From assembly GCA_027083655.1 (NCBI GenBank), contig JALWNS010000458.1, forward strand, positions 1 through 10,130: 10,130 bases of DNA, written 5' to 3'. The stretch comes from Bacteroidales bacterium. Its GTDB lineage: Bacteria; Bacteroidota; Bacteroidia; Bacteroidales; S143-33. The translations under genes were made by a program, and so were the position numbers. The notes below the pieces were generated by a model. That model searched no databases. It was not told the origin of the DNA and saw only the letters and a program-made list of their open reading frames with translations. Positions 2,287 to 9,057 of the stretch are shown here, one piece after another (position 1 is the first letter of the stretch; every line of letters begins with the position of its first letter).

Positions 2287-2330
2287 TTTGTTTCGTGTTG
2301 TGAGGTTTTGTCAATTTAAAAGTTTTGCCA

Positions 2331-3152
2331 ATGGTTGGATTTGCCAATGCTAAGATTAACATAGGTTTGCATATTTTATCCCGCCGTAGTGATGGGTATC
2401 ATGATATTGAGACGGTTTTTTATCCGCTTTATGGTTTGCGGGATGTTGTGGAAGTGGTGCAGAGCAGATCTACGGATATTGTTAACACTGGTCTTGTGGT
2501 GGATGTTCCTCTGGAGAAAAATCTTGTTTACCGTGCTTATAAGATGTTGAAGCAGGATTATAACCTTGGGCATGTGATGTTTTATTTGCATAAGGTTGTG
2601 CCTATGGGAGCAGGCTTAGGAGGTGGCTCATCAGATGCAGCCCAGGCATTGGTTTTGTTGAATAAGGAGTTTGACCTGGGGTTTGGCGATGTTGAGCTTC
2701 ATAATTATGCCCGCCGGTTGGGAGCAGATTGTAGTTTTTTTATTTATAACAAACCAATGATAGCCAGGGGTATAGGTGATGTGCTCGAGCCAGTGGATTT
2801 GAACCTGGAGAATTATAATATTGTTGTAGTTAAGCCTGTGTTTAGTATTGGGACTGCAGAAGCGTATTCAATGGTGGAGCCACGGGAGCGTGATATTTCA
2901 CTTGTAGAATTGGTCAACAGACCTGTGGAGGAGTGGAGAGACTTTGTTGTTAATGATTTTGAGAATGCATTATTTCCCAAATACCCGCAGCTAGTAGAGA
3001 TAAAGCAGAGATTATATGATTTGGGCGCTATTTACGTTTCTTTATCAGGAAGTGGGTCGGCAATTTATGGCATATTTAATGATGTTGTAAACATTGAGCC
3101 TTTGGAGGCTGATTACCAATTTGTTTGGCAATCAAAAAATAACCAGATATGA
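2331..3152 (+). CDS. ispE: 4-diphosphocytidyl-2-C-methyl-D-erythritol kinase
   Basis: IspE phosphorylates CDP-methylerythritol with ATP in the MEP pathway to isopentenyl diphosphate; it is a cytoplasmic GHMP-family kinase. The 273 residues fit the family. The N-terminal substrate-site motif ANAKINIGLHIL (5-16) carries Lys8, and DGYHDIETVFYPL (21-33) follows. The GHMP ATP-binding loop is PMGAGLGGGSSDAA (91-104). GADCSFFIY (131-139) contains the catalytic Asp133, and SLSGSGSAIYGIF (237-249) is the C-terminal glycine-rich motif. I chose the ATG at 2331 over a TTG at 2325 because the family usually begins a few residues before the AKIN motif. It is the first gene of a tightly packed run of four; its TGA overlaps the next ATG (ATGA). 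Confidence 0.97.
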   Translation: MVGFANAKINIGLHILSRRSDGYHDIETVFYPLYGLRDVVEVVQSRSTDIVNTGLVVDVPLEKNLVYRAYKMLKQDYNLGHVMFYLHKVVPMGAGLGGGSSDAAQALVLLNKEFDLGFGDVELHNYARRLGADCSFFIYNKPMIARGIGDVLEPVDLNLENYNIVVVKPVFSIGTAEAYSMVEPRERDISLVELVNRPVEEWRDFVVNDFENALFPKYPQLVEIKQRLYDLGAIYVSLSGSGSAIYGIFNDVVNIEPLEADYQFVWQSKNNQI

Positions 3153-4324
3153 AAAAACTTATCTTTGTCCTTATAATATCGCTAATGTCCATTGCAGTAT
3201 GGCCACAGCGTATAGAGAGTAATTTTGTACGTCAGTATAATAAATCGGCTTTTGAGATATATAATAAAATCCTTAACCAGAGAAAAAACCAGGTGTTCTC
3301 ACCATTGTTCCTGTCGCAGAATTTTTCCCCGTTATATTTAGGTTCGCGTGGAGTTACGAGGCAACAGTTGCAGTATGTTTTTGGTTATCCTGGAGATGAA
3401 GCGCAATTTTTTTCATTGCAGAGGTTTTTCAGGGATTTGATGATATCAAACAATAATTATAACACGAGAATAGAGTCATTTGTGGGAATGATAATGCAGG
3501 ATAGTTTACAAAGATTTATGCGCCAAGGGTTTGAACAGAAATTACCACAATTGGATCTGGATACTATAATTTTTCTGGATCTGGCGACATTCGGGGGAGA
3601 AAAACAGGACAAAATTAATGATTTAGTACGCAATTGGACAATAGACAAATTGCCACGTCCTATTCCACAGGTGGAGCAGGAAATGAAAGGAGGTATTTTG
3701 CTTGTTTCCTCAGGTAAATTTAGTGGTAATTGGGCTCAAAACTTTGCAGAGTTATACCGGGCACCATTTTATTTGGATAATTATGGCCGCCATACAAAAA
3801 GCATTAATTACATGACAGTTAGTGGTTATTTTAAGTACAGTGAAGGGACGGAGTATGATGTTGTGGAGGTGCCATACGAGAATGAGAGAATATCGTTAAT
3901 GATTATTATCCCACATGAAGACGTGGATATTAATGAGCTAAAGAAGCACATTAGTTTTGATGAGTATTCGTTGGTGGTGGATGGTCTCAGAAGGCAAAAG
4001 ATACGACTGTTTTTACCACTAGTAGAGATACATTCTGTTTTTTCTTTACGTGATACTTTGCAGTCTATGCTTCCCCAGGTTTTTCGTTTTGGAGCTAATT
4101 TTTCGTCGATGGTAAGTAAGATGGTGTATGTTGATCAGGTTTATCAGGCTATTTCTTTTGTTATAGAGCCAGAGAGGCGGCTTCCTTTCCGGCGTTTTAT
4201 AGATTTTCAGGCAGAGCAAGCACGTAATAAGATCGTTTTTATTAACCATCCGTTTATTTTTATTATCCGGGATGTAAGGTCCAATACTATTTTGTTCATG
4301 GGGCATGTTTATAAACCTATTTAG
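3149..4324 (+). CDS. Secreted serpin-fold protein, probably non-inhibitory
   Basis: The 391-residue protein has a signal peptide (residues 1 to about 20: KK, then LIFVLIISLMSIAV) without a lipobox, so it should be exported. Serpin landmarks run in order across nearly the whole length: FSPLFLSQNFSPLYLGSRG (50-68), INDLVRNWT (156-164), ILLVSSGKFSGNWAQNF (183-199), the INYMTVSGYFKY region (219-230), VVEVPYENERISLMIIIPHE (238-257), the strand RLFLPLVEIHSVFSLRDTL (286-304), NHPFIFIIRD (366-375) and ILFMGHV (381-387). Serpins normally trap proteases when the reactive loop is cleaved and inserted. Here the loop region (about 338-363) keeps a typical length, but the Ala-rich hinge (EGTEAAAAT-like) is replaced by bulky and charged residues around PERRLPFRRF. 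Inhibition by the usual mechanism is therefore doubtful; a chaperone-like or structural role is possible. Its ATG overlaps the ispE stop, and the STAND gene starts 2 bases after its TAG. Confidence 0.85.
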   Translation: MKKLIFVLIISLMSIAVWPQRIESNFVRQYNKSAFEIYNKILNQRKNQVFSPLFLSQNFSPLYLGSRGVTRQQLQYVFGYPGDEAQFFSLQRFFRDLMISNNNYNTRIESFVGMIMQDSLQRFMRQGFEQKLPQLDLDTIIFLDLATFGGEKQDKINDLVRNWTIDKLPRPIPQVEQEMKGGILLVSSGKFSGNWAQNFAELYRAPFYLDNYGRHTKSINYMTVSGYFKYSEGTEYDVVEVPYENERISLMIIIPHEDVDINELKKHISFDEYSLVVDGLRRQKIRLFLPLVEIHSVFSLRDTLQSMLPQVFRFGANFSSMVSKMVYVDQVYQAISFVIEPERRLPFRRFIDFQAEQARNKIVFINHPFIFIIRDVRSNTILFMGHVYKPI

Positions 4325-4326
4325 CC

Positions 4327-6345
4327 ATGGTCAACAAGAGGTTTTTACAGCATCTGGCGCAGGTCTTGAATAAAGTATTCCAGACAGAGTCTTTTAAATT
4401 AACAGATGATGAGTTGGTTCATGTTTATTCAGGAGAAATGAAAATAGGGGTCTATAGTGCAGTAGGAGACCCTAACCAGCTTGGAGAGCTTAGCATGAAA
4501 GATTTGTTTGCCCAGATAGATCAGGTCGTCCAGGGTCTAAGAAATCCTGGATTAGACTTAACCAGGTTGATTATTATCTCGACGAATAATGAGGAGGAGT
4601 TAATCACCAATTTCATTGAATTTTTGAGAAAAAAACAAAACATTAAACCAGAGGTTGAGTTCTGGGGTTGGGAGACAATACAGAAGATTTTTCAACACTT
4701 TCCTGAGCAATCCGAAGATAAATTGCAGATAGGAGATGAAAAGAATTTGAACTTTGTACCAACAGCTAATATTTACCAGCTTTTTGGTATAGATGAGGTT
4801 CTAAAACACATAGACCAGGCCCTGGATGGGTCACTTACACCTGTGGTTATTCACAATCCATTGAGCGGTACAGGCAAGACAGCAATTCTGTTGGCTTATG
4901 CTTTTCATTATGATTATCAAAAGAAGTTTGACCATTATGCTTATGTTGGTGTTTCTGGAAACCTGAAGGTGGGTTTTGTCAGTTCATTTAATGGACAGAT
5001 AGGTTTTTCGTATAGTCCCCTGGTGGGCCTTGAGGAAAATTTGAATCATTTGATAGATATGCTAAACCTGGTTCCTGGACGCAATCTATTACTTGTTGAT
5101 GGTGTTGATACAGTGGAGCAATCGGTTGATTTGTTACATATAAGCTCGAGGCTAAAGTGGAAAATACTCATTACTTCCAGCTTCCGGATTTTTAGTTTTG
5201 AGAATATCTATCTGGAGCATCCTAGTCCAGAGGCATCAGGCAAGATTTTTACTTATTATTTCAAGGATCTGGAGGTCAATGATGCAGTCAGTAAGCTTCT
5301 CGATAAGATATCGTACCATCCTTTTATGAATGTGTTTTTGGCCAGGTTCCTGACGCATTATGATAACCTTTCCGTAGAGGATCTTTTGCTTTTATTGGAG
5401 GAACGGGATAACCGTGTTTACCGCCTTGGTGATTATATAGACCGGCGCCTTTCGAAGAACCAGATTATTCTCATGCGTTCTTTGCTTAAGTATATAATGG
5501 CAATATTTGATTACCAGGCGCGGCAGTTTACAGACATGGAGAAGGAGATTTTATTAATATCAAGTGTGCTCCCGGACAGGTTTACTTCTTTCGCAATGTT
5601 AAAGGAAATTTTGGGTGTGGAGGAACAGGATAAGTTTTCGGATACAGTATTGATGATTTTGAGCAAAGGATGGCTTGAGGCTGATAAAGATAAATTCAGG
5701 GTACCACGTCTGGTAAAAGCAGTATTACACAAGAAATTTAAACCAACGCCTGTTAAACTTAAAAGATATATTGAGTTTTTGTTTAAGCGGTTATCTGGTA
5801 CAACGGGTGATGCGCTGTCATGGATAGATTATGCCAGTGCATTAGTGCATGGTGTCGTAAAATTGAATATTGATGTTGCAAATCTGGCGTTGTTAATGGC
5901 ACAGCATTATGATAATCTCAAGGATGAGAAAAGTGCTATTGATAATTACGAATATGCAGGCTATATAGTAGAGCAGATTTACAATGAGACAGCAGATCAG
6001 GATCTATTGGATCCTCTGGCGCGTATTTGGGCGCGTGTGGGGCGTACACAGAGGGCTTTGTATTACGCAGAGAATATGCTACGGGCTCTGGAGGTGGAGC
6101 AGGAACAAAGCGAGGATCTGGTTTTCTGGTACCAGTTTGTTGCTAGCCTTTATCACAAGTTGGGTAATTATGAAAAAGCAATAGGCTATGCTGATAATGC
6201 AGTGGACATGGCTACAATGCTTTTTGATAAAGATGACCCACGCTTATATGAAGCACAGGAGTTTCATCGACTTCTGAGCCAGGATTTTAATCAATCATTT
6301 CAAAATAACGAGAAAAAACAATGGCTAAGAAAATTTTTTATATAA
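4327..6345 (+). CDS. STAND-type P-loop ATPase with C-terminal TPR repeats
   Basis: This 672-residue cytoplasmic protein has no signal peptide or membrane segment. The NB-ARC/NACHT-like core has a Walker A loop NPLSGTGKT (177-185, Lys184), a Walker B strand LLLVDGVD (254-261, Asp258), a sensor-like strand KILITSSFR (279-287) and YHPFMNVFLARFL (330-342), which matches the GxP/PLAL region of STAND ATPases. A winged-helix-like segment follows (about 403-470), then TPR-type helical repeats (about 516-655; for example KLGNYEKAIGYADNAVDMA, 611-629). Residues 1-125 resemble the nuclease-like N-terminal domains seen on other STAND proteins (LTRLIIIST, 78-86; EFWGWETIQKIF, 111-122), but no catalytic QxK is evident. 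STAND proteins act as ATP-driven switches that oligomerise after ligand binding. The ligand and output are unknown. The gene's end overlaps the next gene by 25 bases. Confidence 0.85.
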   Translation: MVNKRFLQHLAQVLNKVFQTESFKLTDDELVHVYSGEMKIGVYSAVGDPNQLGELSMKDLFAQIDQVVQGLRNPGLDLTRLIIISTNNEEELITNFIEFLRKKQNIKPEVEFWGWETIQKIFQHFPEQSEDKLQIGDEKNLNFVPTANIYQLFGIDEVLKHIDQALDGSLTPVVIHNPLSGTGKTAILLAYAFHYDYQKKFDHYAYVGVSGNLKVGFVSSFNGQIGFSYSPLVGLEENLNHLIDMLNLVPGRNLLLVDGVDTVEQSVDLLHISSRLKWKILITSSFRIFSFENIYLEHPSPEASGKIFTYYFKDLEVNDAVSKLLDKISYHPFMNVFLARFLTHYDNLSVEDLLLLLEERDNRVYRLGDYIDRRLSKNQIILMRSLLKYIMAIFDYQARQFTDMEKEILLISSVLPDRFTSFAMLKEILGVEEQDKFSDTVLMILSKGWLEADKDKFRVPRLVKAVLHKKFKPTPVKLKRYIEFLFKRLSGTTGDALSWIDYASALVHGVVKLNIDVANLALLMAQHYDNLKDEKSAIDNYEYAGYIVEQIYNETADQDLLDPLARIWARVGRTQRALYYAENMLRALEVEQEQSEDLVFWYQFVASLYHKLGNYEKAIGYADNAVDMATMLFDKDDPRLYEAQEFHRLLSQDFNQSFQNNEKKQWLRKFFI

Positions 6346-8741
6346 GTCTGGTTTTGATTTTTTTCAACCCTAGCTTTGGCCAGTCATTGGCAAAGGGTTT
6401 CCGTTTTCTTGAAGAAGGCAAGCCAGACAAAGCTTTACGCGTATTTGAGAAATACATTCAAAAACGCCAGGACCTGCCTGTGGCGTATTATGGTATGTCA
6501 TTAGTTTATAATGATTCATCTTACCGGCATTATGATCCATATACGGCTTATCGTTATATCAAGCAGGCTCTGAAATATTACAATAAATATTCTATGTCGT
6601 GGAGGCGTAAGTGGGTCCAGGTTTACCATGTTGACTACAAAACACTTGTCGCTGAGCATGATAGGATTGTTAACCCGCAGCTAAAGAAAGCATTGGATAG
6701 CAGGGATATCATGCAGATAAATGATTTTATAGTGCGTTATTCAGAGAGTCCTCAGTCTGATAGTGCGCGGCTCTTTATAGATAGTGTATATCTTGAGGAA
6801 GCTATACGCGAAAATACAATAGAAGCCTATCGACGTTATCTCAAGGAGCATCCCACATCGAGGTACACACAGAAAGCTAAAGAACTACTTATGCGGCTAT
6901 GGAAAAGGGAATTTCATAGAGTCTATTCTACCTTGGAGTTGAGTAGTATCCAGAGGTTTGAGAAAAAATACCCTGATTATCCTTATAACCAGGATAGCGT
7001 AATTTTTTATAAAGATCTGGCAATCAGGGGACAGCAATTAATGCTTTATGCTCCATATAGACCTGAATTTTTGGATAAATATATAAATTATATCCACGAT
7101 GCAGCACCTATGGAGCCTGCATATCTGGCTTTGCTCAAGCTAATTGAACCACCATTAATGAAACATGATTTTTCTGCAGCCATAGATACATTGCTTAAGT
7201 ATAAATCTTTTTTCCCACACGAGCAGCGTATTGATACTTTAATATCGATTTTACGCAGGCCTGATGAGAAACTTGTTAGTGCCCCTGTCCCTGGCCAGGT
7301 AAATACTCCGGATGGTTTTGAGCTAATTCCAGTGATCACTGCAGATGGAAAGACTTTATTTTTCTGTGGCGAGGAACGCAAGGATAATCTCGGGCTCGAA
7401 GATATTTTTGTTTCCCATTATGATGGCCGGCAGTGGCAAAAACCAACGGTAGTCGAAGACCTGAGCACAGCTTTTGGCAACGAGGCTCCGTTGTCGGTTT
7501 CGGCCGATGGTAATACTTTGATTTATTTCAGCAATGGAGACGTGTATATGAGTCAGAGGACACGTGACGGTTGGTCTTATCCTCATGAGATAGAAGAGAT
7601 AAATAGCGATTTCTGGGATGCAGATGCTTTCTTGACAGCAGATGGTAATGCTATACTGTTTGTATCCGATAGACCCAATCCTTCGGGAGATTATCATCCA
7701 TTTAATAGCTATTACCATGGAGGATTCATAGGCAATACTGATATTTGGGTCGTAGTCAAAGAGGGGGATCATTGGTCAGAGCCAATAAATCTTGGACAGG
7801 TGGTAAATACACCTTTTTCTGAGCGTACCCCTTTCCTGCATTCAGATATGCGCACTTTGTATTTTGCTTCTGATGGGCATGCTTCCCTTGGGAGTATGGA
7901 CTTATTCGTTTCTTACCGTCTTAGTGATACGGGCTGGACAGAGTGGTCAGAACCGGTAAATCTGGGTAAATGGTTTAATTCTCCACAGAAAGAGTATGGA
8001 TATGCTATTTCCACGGATGGATCGTTGGCGTATTATTCATTGTTTGATTCCGTACAGTCTGATATTTATACAATAAGCCTGCCTGAAGAGGCTAAGCCTA
8101 AGCATGTGGTGACAGTTTATGGATATGTTTATGATGTGGATAGCAATTTGTTATCTGCCAGTCTTATATGGGAAGACCTGGAGACAGGTAAAGAGCTGGG
8201 ACATCTGCGCACAGACCCGCAGACAGGTTATTACGTCATACCTCTACCAGAGGGCAAGAATTATGGATTTTATGTACAATGTGATGGTTATTACCCATCG
8301 GCTAATAATATTGATCTGAGGCAGTATAAAGGTTCTGATGAGATACGGCATGACTTTATACTCACGCCTTTGGAAAAGATGATTAGCGAAGGTAGGTCAG
8401 TGCGGTTGAATAATATTTTCTTTGACTTTGATAGTGATCATTTGCGCCCTGAGTCTTATCCTGAGCTAAAGCGCCTGGCAAAGATCATAAAGCAAAACCC
8501 TACATTACTTTTTGAGATAGCCGGACATACGGATAGTGTGGGCACAGAGGCTTATAATATACAGTTGTCCAAGCGGCGTGCCCAGGCAGTGAGAGACTAT
8601 CTAGTAAAGGAGGGATGTAATCCGCAGCAACTAGTAGTCAAAGGTTATGGTTATTCCCGTCCCGTCGCAAGTAATGAAACCGAGCAAGGGCGACAGGCTA
8701 ACCGGCGTGTGGAAGTCCGTATAATAGGCAAATTAAAATAA
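6321..8741 (+). CDS. TPR/PD40/OmpA-C envelope protein, PorE-like
   Basis: The 806-residue exported protein has a signal peptide (1-20, cleavage likely after NPSFG, no lipobox Cys). TPR-like helices cover about 22-310 (LAKGFRFLEEGKPDKALRVF, 23-42). A PD40/WD40-like propeller spans about 325-590, with repeated ADGxxxxF and WSEPxNLG elements (WSEPINLG 485-492, WSEPVNLG 542-549). A carboxypeptidase-regulatory-like domain follows (about 595-682), then an OmpA-C domain (about 695-803). The latter has IFFDFDSDHLRPES (699-712), IAGHTDSVGTEAYN (733-746), LSKRRAQAV (749-757) and QANRRVEVRI (792-801). Asp738 and Arg753 are spaced as in peptidoglycan-binding OmpA domains. The domain order is that of PorE, a type IX secretion component of Porphyromonas that links the outer membrane machine to peptidoglycan, but paralogues with other roles are common in Bacteroidota. 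The start ATG lies inside the STAND gene. Confidence 0.9.
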   Translation: MAKKIFYISLVLIFFNPSFGQSLAKGFRFLEEGKPDKALRVFEKYIQKRQDLPVAYYGMSLVYNDSSYRHYDPYTAYRYIKQALKYYNKYSMSWRRKWVQVYHVDYKTLVAEHDRIVNPQLKKALDSRDIMQINDFIVRYSESPQSDSARLFIDSVYLEEAIRENTIEAYRRYLKEHPTSRYTQKAKELLMRLWKREFHRVYSTLELSSIQRFEKKYPDYPYNQDSVIFYKDLAIRGQQLMLYAPYRPEFLDKYINYIHDAAPMEPAYLALLKLIEPPLMKHDFSAAIDTLLKYKSFFPHEQRIDTLISILRRPDEKLVSAPVPGQVNTPDGFELIPVITADGKTLFFCGEERKDNLGLEDIFVSHYDGRQWQKPTVVEDLSTAFGNEAPLSVSADGNTLIYFSNGDVYMSQRTRDGWSYPHEIEEINSDFWDADAFLTADGNAILFVSDRPNPSGDYHPFNSYYHGGFIGNTDIWVVVKEGDHWSEPINLGQVVNTPFSERTPFLHSDMRTLYFASDGHASLGSMDLFVSYRLSDTGWTEWSEPVNLGKWFNSPQKEYGYAISTDGSLAYYSLFDSVQSDIYTISLPEEAKPKHVVTVYGYVYDVDSNLLSASLIWEDLETGKELGHLRTDPQTGYYVIPLPEGKNYGFYVQCDGYYPSANNIDLRQYKGSDEIRHDFILTPLEKMISEGRSVRLNNIFFDFDSDHLRPESYPELKRLAKIIKQNPTLLFEIAGHTDSVGTEAYNIQLSKRRAQAVRDYLVKEGCNPQQLVVKGYGYSRPVASNETEQGRQANRRVEVRIIGKLK

Positions 8742-8785
8742 ACAGTAACTATTGAGGATAGCAAAAGGACTAGTTGTTTAGCGCA

Positions 8786-8899
8786 GTGAGGTGCCGTAGG
8801 CACGCTCCCAGCGGAATTATACGGGATAACTTTCATATCTGTAATAATGCGATAAAAAGGTTTTTTGTGCTTCAGGTAATGATTTAGAAAGCACCTCAC
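8786..8899. repeat. 9-bp inverted repeat enclosing smaller hairpins
   Basis: GTGAGGTGC (8786-8794) is exactly complementary to GCACCTCAC (8891-8899), about 96 bases apart. At its left arm, GTGCC-GTA-GGCAC (8791-8803) forms a compact hairpin. At its right arm, GTGCTT (8867-8872) can pair with AAGCAC (8889-8894). These pairings compete with the long-range one. This suggests a folded RNA, or the ends of a small palindromic repetitive element. Confidence 0.5.
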
Positions 8900-8939
8900 G
8901 TCTCCATCCTGCAAGCGAGCAGAAAGCACCTAGCAGGAT
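8886..8939. repeat. 11-bp direct repeat plus 7-bp hairpin
   Basis: AGAAAGCACCT occurs at 8886-8896 and again at 8921-8931, with start points 35 bases apart. Around the second copy, ATCCTGC (8906-8912) and GCAGGAT (8933-8939) form a perfect 7-bp stem with a 20-base loop that contains it. Both copies contain GCACC, so either can pair with GGTGC in the left arm (8790-8794). Confidence 0.5.
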
Positions 8940-9057
8940 AGACAGTTTTTAACTCCTGTGAATGTCATTAGAAGCCAATGTCAGAAGGATATTGGGGAAA
9001 TTTTTTGCATCTATGACTGAAAATGGAGGCAGGGTGCTAATCTATACGATTATTTGT

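Follow-up and report, generated by a model that had tools for sequence, protein, structure and literature searches.

The three genes directly downstream of ispE in this Bacteroidales contig are best read, with a probability of roughly 0.6, as a genus-specific extension of the ispE operon, in which a non-inhibitory serpin, a STAND protein acting as a regulator or scaffold and a PD40/OmpA protein would serve envelope upkeep side by side. As far as sampled, the set was put together at the level of this small genus of uncultured Bacteroidales, and it has the look of a local arrangement of genes more than of a new, conserved system. The window, that is the whole stretch of 10,130 nucleotides analysed here, corresponds to contig C458; the draft genome containing it has 2.53 Mb and is 75% complete, with 4% contamination.

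Gene order and packing behind ispE

According to the list of open reading frames in the window, four genes lie head to tail, all on the plus strand. The first is ispE (2331..3152), encoding 4-diphosphocytidyl-2-C-methyl-D-erythritol kinase (TIGR00154, 165.2 bits against a cut-off of 138.7). Its frame is listed from a TTG at 2325 (2325–3152); the true start is probably the ATG at 2331, where the relatives begin. It overlaps the serpin gene by 4 bases; a gap of 2 bases separates the serpin and STAND genes, and the STAND gene overlaps the gene for the PD40/OmpA-like protein by 25 bases. The first-pass annotation had given this order and the three junction sizes exactly to the base. It had also assigned the serpin, STAND and PD40/OmpA families correctly, as judged from Pfam and NCBIfam scans and, for the STAND protein, from a profile of ten relatives.

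Three of the 60 relatives searched (G001, G002 and G003) belong to the same genus. All four genes are kept in the order ispE-serpin-STAND-OmpA in G003 and likewise in G001, where the contig end cuts the OmpA gene after 504 residues and the remainder is found next to a HAD gene on a different contig. G002 has kept STAND-OmpA-HAD, with a STAND-OmpA gap of 24 bases (18 with a TTG start); its contig breaks off inside the STAND N-terminus, before the serpin. Neither ispE nor an operon-type serpin was found in the G002 assembly, a result that an assembly gap spanning the two genes would explain, so that the serpin may or may not be present there. The 2-base gap and the 25-base overlap are identical in G001 and G003, and the ispE/serpin junction is a 4-base overlap in the former and a 4-base gap in the latter. 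In the pairs computed, dN/dS was 0.08–0.14 for the serpin, STAND and OmpA genes, approximate values since dS exceeded 1, and on this basis the three genes are under purifying selection.

Tight packing is nothing unusual in its own right. Among 23 loci of the order, selected around our own hits and analysed with crude ORF calls, 56 of 161 same-strand neighbours are joined by tight junctions (−40 to +25 bases), and three successive tight junctions occur in 6 of 170 quartets, from four loci; the sister operon in L026 falls outside these six, a crude start having inflated its first overlap to 47 bases. Such counts favour the reading that competes best with an operon extension serving the envelope, namely that the genes have no functional link, sharing a housekeeping transcript and keeping their order by slow rearrangement in a young genus. 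We regard this as a serious possibility, somewhat short of even odds. The flanking SLOG and HAD genes are also kept wherever the contigs reach them, so a conserved order is nothing peculiar to the three genes, and slow rearrangement may be all that it reflects. Against the absence of any link stands the fact that the 2-base gap and the 25-base overlap have stayed exact at 66–75% STAND identity.

Co-transcription of the four genes is plausible, and it is the packing that suggests it, because the known Bacteroidota-type promoter pattern, in its strict form, gave no match at the starts of the three genes or in front of ispE. Four strict plus-strand matches to this pattern lie at 294, 943, 2340 (inside ispE) and 9958. 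A sigma-70 scan, which returned 44 matches against a shuffle mean of 31.7, placed plus-strand matches inside the operon, for example at 3149 and 6170. Behind the OmpA gene, a terminator-like stem is located at 8975–8995, within the stretch 8742–8995; a repeat origin of the tail 8742–8985 was considered and rejected, the genome containing one 31-base partial second copy. At the other end of the window, the SLOG gene divergent from ispE (1610–2125) matches PF18306 and scores 98.7 bits with TIGR00725, just under the cut-off of 106.9, and a 261-residue lipoprotein-like protein encoded at 92–877 has no Pfam match at E 0.1.

Properties of the three proteins

The serpin gene (3149..4324) encodes a protein of 391 residues with a clear match to PF00079 (E 1.9e-48; 166 bits, cut-off 27). 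Its export is predicted because the N-terminus is hydrophobic and devoid of Cys. The inhibitory hinge of serpins is of the EEGTEAAAAT type, which is also seen in relatives. None of the eight hinge positions P15–P8 carries a small residue in the window serpin, and the count is 0–1 of eight throughout the three operon serpins and three serpins of group g66, the nearest group outside the genus (see below). Of the other 26 distinct serpins compared, 24 have six to eight small residues, among them a paralogue in the window genome; this set was drawn mainly from top-scoring hits and is therefore biased towards canonical serpins. The two exceptions are G059 (3/8) and L057 (2/8). A tree with 32 rows groups the six hinge-less serpins in a single clade (support 100/99), and since G059 branches next to it (support 97/94), hinge decay may have started earlier. 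L055, which is the same as G059, was dropped before the tree was built, and L039, L046 and further weak or partial hits were kept out of the comparison.

Serpins elsewhere carry the canonical hinge in G049, G192, G279 and G116, four of the five other genomes of the order with a serpin match. A scan of the class at E 1e-45 retrieved serpins from 7 of 395 genomes, one being the window genome itself (G000), and the other six have a canonical hinge. At the thresholds used, hinge-less serpins were found in groups g1 and g66 only, both of which have a full-length STAND.

The equivalent of the reactive centre loop (residues 338–366; 4160..4246, 29 codons) is 86% identical in both comparisons made, as against only 71–77% for residues 20–337. 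The canonical paralogue displays the reverse pattern in the one pair compared (57% in the loop, 68% elsewhere); the loop values are based on 29 residues from three genomes. A non-inhibitory role is most likely for the window serpin, judging from its hinge and loop, and the protease control that the first-pass annotation associated with serpins is not supported here, the inhibitory hinge being lost. In the PDB another serpin gives the best match (9j91, E 2.3e-27), and the sequence matches include chains of HSP47 (SERPINH1), maspin and ovalbumin, non-inhibitory serpins that share the fold. The window protein differs from them in being bacterial, predicted to be exported and without a known ligand. 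The predicted structure of the serpin (pLDDT 36) was too poor for use. Serpin genes also occur in series elsewhere: the window genome has a tandem pair (L052, G000:C274), and in L146 (G001:C204, 1698–11364) a gene for an alpha-2-macroglobulin-like protein of 1972 residues is followed by three serpins head to tail.

The second gene (4327..6345) encodes a 672-residue STAND protein in which no signal peptide was seen. Taken alone, the protein is weakly recognised: TPR_12 scores 25.0 bits, under the cut-off of 30.1, and the domain scan did not detect the NB-ARC region. The profile of ten relatives, by contrast, matches the plant NB-ARC protein 8yl6 over positions 172–350 (E 2.8e-11), and with this profile an NB-ARC/STAND-type NTPase region is present. 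In the alignment of the ten relatives, the P-loop NPLSGTGKT occupies residues 177–185 (4855..4881); the Walker A lysine K184 is found in nine of the ten, with Arg in G002, and the Walker B acid D258 in all ten, followed by an acidic residue in none of them. Given that the P-loop lysine is so widely kept, the protein may still work as an ATP-driven STAND switch. The tail carries TPR repeats (residues 564–629; 6016..6213; TPR_12 in 10/10 members at E up to 1).

Residues 1–125 (4327..4701) constitute a candidate degenerate nuclease-like domain of the PD-(D/E)XK type. The profile of this region matches a protein of G066 with the motif GID..VIQCK (E 1.9e-18), which itself gives subthreshold matches to Mrr_cat (under its cut-off) and SMEK_N; a search of the PDB with P0001 yielded no match. 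The PD-(D/E)XK assignment is based on the motif and on the succession of helices and strands, as read from a poor model. At the aligned catalytic positions the window protein has H32 and Y43-S44-A45 in place of D and QxK. Among the nine family members with the region (the G002 row is without the N-terminus), QxK is kept in none and D in three. The STAND structure model (pLDDT 52) was too poor for use, and its top Foldseek hit, 6mfv, is weak (TM about 0.2) and was not relied on. With the NB-ARC/TPR STANDs 6mfv and plant At5g66900 the window protein shares an NB-ARC-like region, by profile, and the TPR tail; the degenerate nuclease-like N-terminus sets it apart from both.

The third gene (6321..8741) encodes a predicted exported protein of 806 residues with a PD40 propeller (PF07676, E 6.1e-19) and an OmpA domain of the peptidoglycan-binding type at residues 700–795 (8418..8705; PF00691, E 6.4e-26). 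Both domains are shared with PorE of type IX secretion and with the OmpA-like protein CHU_0125. The protein scores 194.6 bits with the PorE model NF052230 and 200.9 bits with that of CHU_0125, far below the respective cut-offs of 600 and 620. PorE carries a lipoprotein cysteine near its N-terminus, and none is present in the first 33 residues of the window protein. A PorE scoring over the cut-off is encoded elsewhere in G001 and G003. Consequently, the identification of the window protein as PorE was rejected; the initial description as PorE-like holds in the sense of a PD40/OmpA paralogue. In the window genome the PorE profile has 20 matches, some of which are pieces of one protein. Type IX secretion tails (Por_Secre_tail) were matched 37–57 times per genome in four of four genomes, 40 times in G000.

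Distribution outside the genus

Genomes were sampled from the order (393) and from the class (395), and the best two to four candidates per genome were scored, so misses are possible. Within the sample of the order, the operon serpin has matches at E 1e-30 in 11 genomes, the STAND protein at E 1e-15 in 24 and the OmpA-like protein at E 1e-100 in 41. The closest serpins, together with full-length STANDs, are found in group g66 (G264, G172 and G068), which counts as near here by its serpins and OmpA-like proteins, the best matches beyond the genus, and not by a species tree. In G264 and G068 the serpin, STAND and OmpA-like genes lie on separate contigs with other neighbours. In G172 the serpin is apart from the STAND gene, and a search at E 1e-100 returned no OmpA-like gene. 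The three genes of the operon are therefore apart in near relatives, an outcome that the first-pass annotation had itself named as speaking against a coupled set.

In both g66 genomes where the locus can be read (L123 and L125), the serpin is followed after 6–7 bases by a Reg_prop/SpoIIE gene: in G264 the order is ispE, the serpin and, 6 bases on, the Reg_prop/SpoIIE gene, and in G068 the distance from the hinge-less serpin to such a gene is 7 bases, the 300 bases at the start of the contig showing no ispE. In G172 the serpin is preceded by a gene which, by eye, resembles that for an ABC transporter ATPase, and the contig ends inside the serpin. The g66 STAND gene adjoins CAP-like genes in all three genomes (L128, L129 and L130; PF00188 was tested for one of them). 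Upstream at the same three loci there is a divergent gene that appears by eye to encode a lipoprotein-like protein. In another locus, L132 (G175:C367, 1429–4280), a SLOG gene 46% identical to that of the window is situated just upstream of a STAND gene.

In G072 of group g70 (L179, G072:C551, 204–4930), a SpoIIE relative (Reg_prop/SpoIIE) follows ispE after 146 bases, with no serpin between. Since the downstream genes differ between groups, as G264 and G072 exemplify, the slot behind ispE is changeable, which again speaks for genes that are neighbours without a functional link.

Possible roles of the gene set

Under the preferred reading, the ispE transcription unit would have been extended in this genus by three genes, with co-transcription suggested by their packing. 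The exported serpin would most likely bind a partner via its fixed loop, with no protease trapping. The PD40/OmpA protein would be a periplasmic beta-propeller anchored to peptidoglycan through its OmpA domain, related to PorE but distinct from it. The cytoplasmic NB-ARC/TPR STAND protein, probably descended from a nuclease-STAND, would most likely act as a regulator or scaffold and not as a defence killer, because the catalytic residues are missing from its nuclease-like domain. The three would probably serve envelope upkeep, by binding or scaffolding, in parallel; connecting them across the inner membrane would take another component.

That component is central to a second alternative, in which the three genes make up one dedicated envelope-sensing system: the serpin, as ligand or sensor, would signal to the PD40/OmpA protein and, via a putative membrane partner, to the STAND switch. 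The tight order kept in the genus is consistent with this, as are the g66 serpins of the same clade, whose genes closely precede one for a propeller sensor that carries a SpoIIE phosphatase domain, and the occurrence of a full-length STAND in both groups with hinge-less serpins. However, the three families are apart in g66, groups g70 and g37 have full-length STANDs but returned no serpin at E 1e-30, and no membrane link was found; we consider such a system unlikely.

The most interesting remainder, whichever reading is preferred for the operon, is the clade of hinge-less serpins, which in two families have propeller or signalling genes as neighbours. This clade might have given up protease trapping and become a periplasmic binding subunit of envelope signalling, paired with the Reg_prop/SpoIIE sensor in g66 and with the nuclease-dead STAND and the propeller/OmpA protein in the operon genus, an improbable scenario at present that is drawn from sequence comparison. 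If the serpin were indeed a dedicated non-inhibitory binder tied to sensor genes, it would be an example from bacteria of serpins put to a use other than protease control, in an operon that is small and testable. If not, the locus advises caution: tight coupling beside a housekeeping gene, in one genus alone, is not enough in itself to define a system.

An island for defence and protease control, with the STAND protein as nuclease effector and the serpin as protease inhibitor, is very improbable: STANDs do act in defence and serpins in protease control in general, but the inhibitory hinge and the nuclease residues are absent here, and the position behind ispE is unchanged in G001 and G003. Neither the window serpin nor the window STAND has a PADLOC match. 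The OmpA protein matches seven MotB-type ZorB models (best E 3.2e-14; no cut-off given); these matches are confined to the OmpA domain, which Pfam assigns to OmpA, and are probably due to shared OmpA/MotB domain homology rather than to Zorya. When ten STAND relatives were compared with PADLOC, three gave a TPR match and one an effector match, all weak (best E 1.4e-4). The joint defence function considered conceivable at first is not supported, and of the proposed coupled set it is the coupling and its conservation inside the genus that stand, not a coherent defence or protease-control system. A mobile origin of the STAND gene was likewise rejected, with no match in 50,697 phage records and two partial matches in 72,556 plasmid records. 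Serpin matches were present in six plasmid records, at under 60% identity, and the five listed are annotated as serpins.
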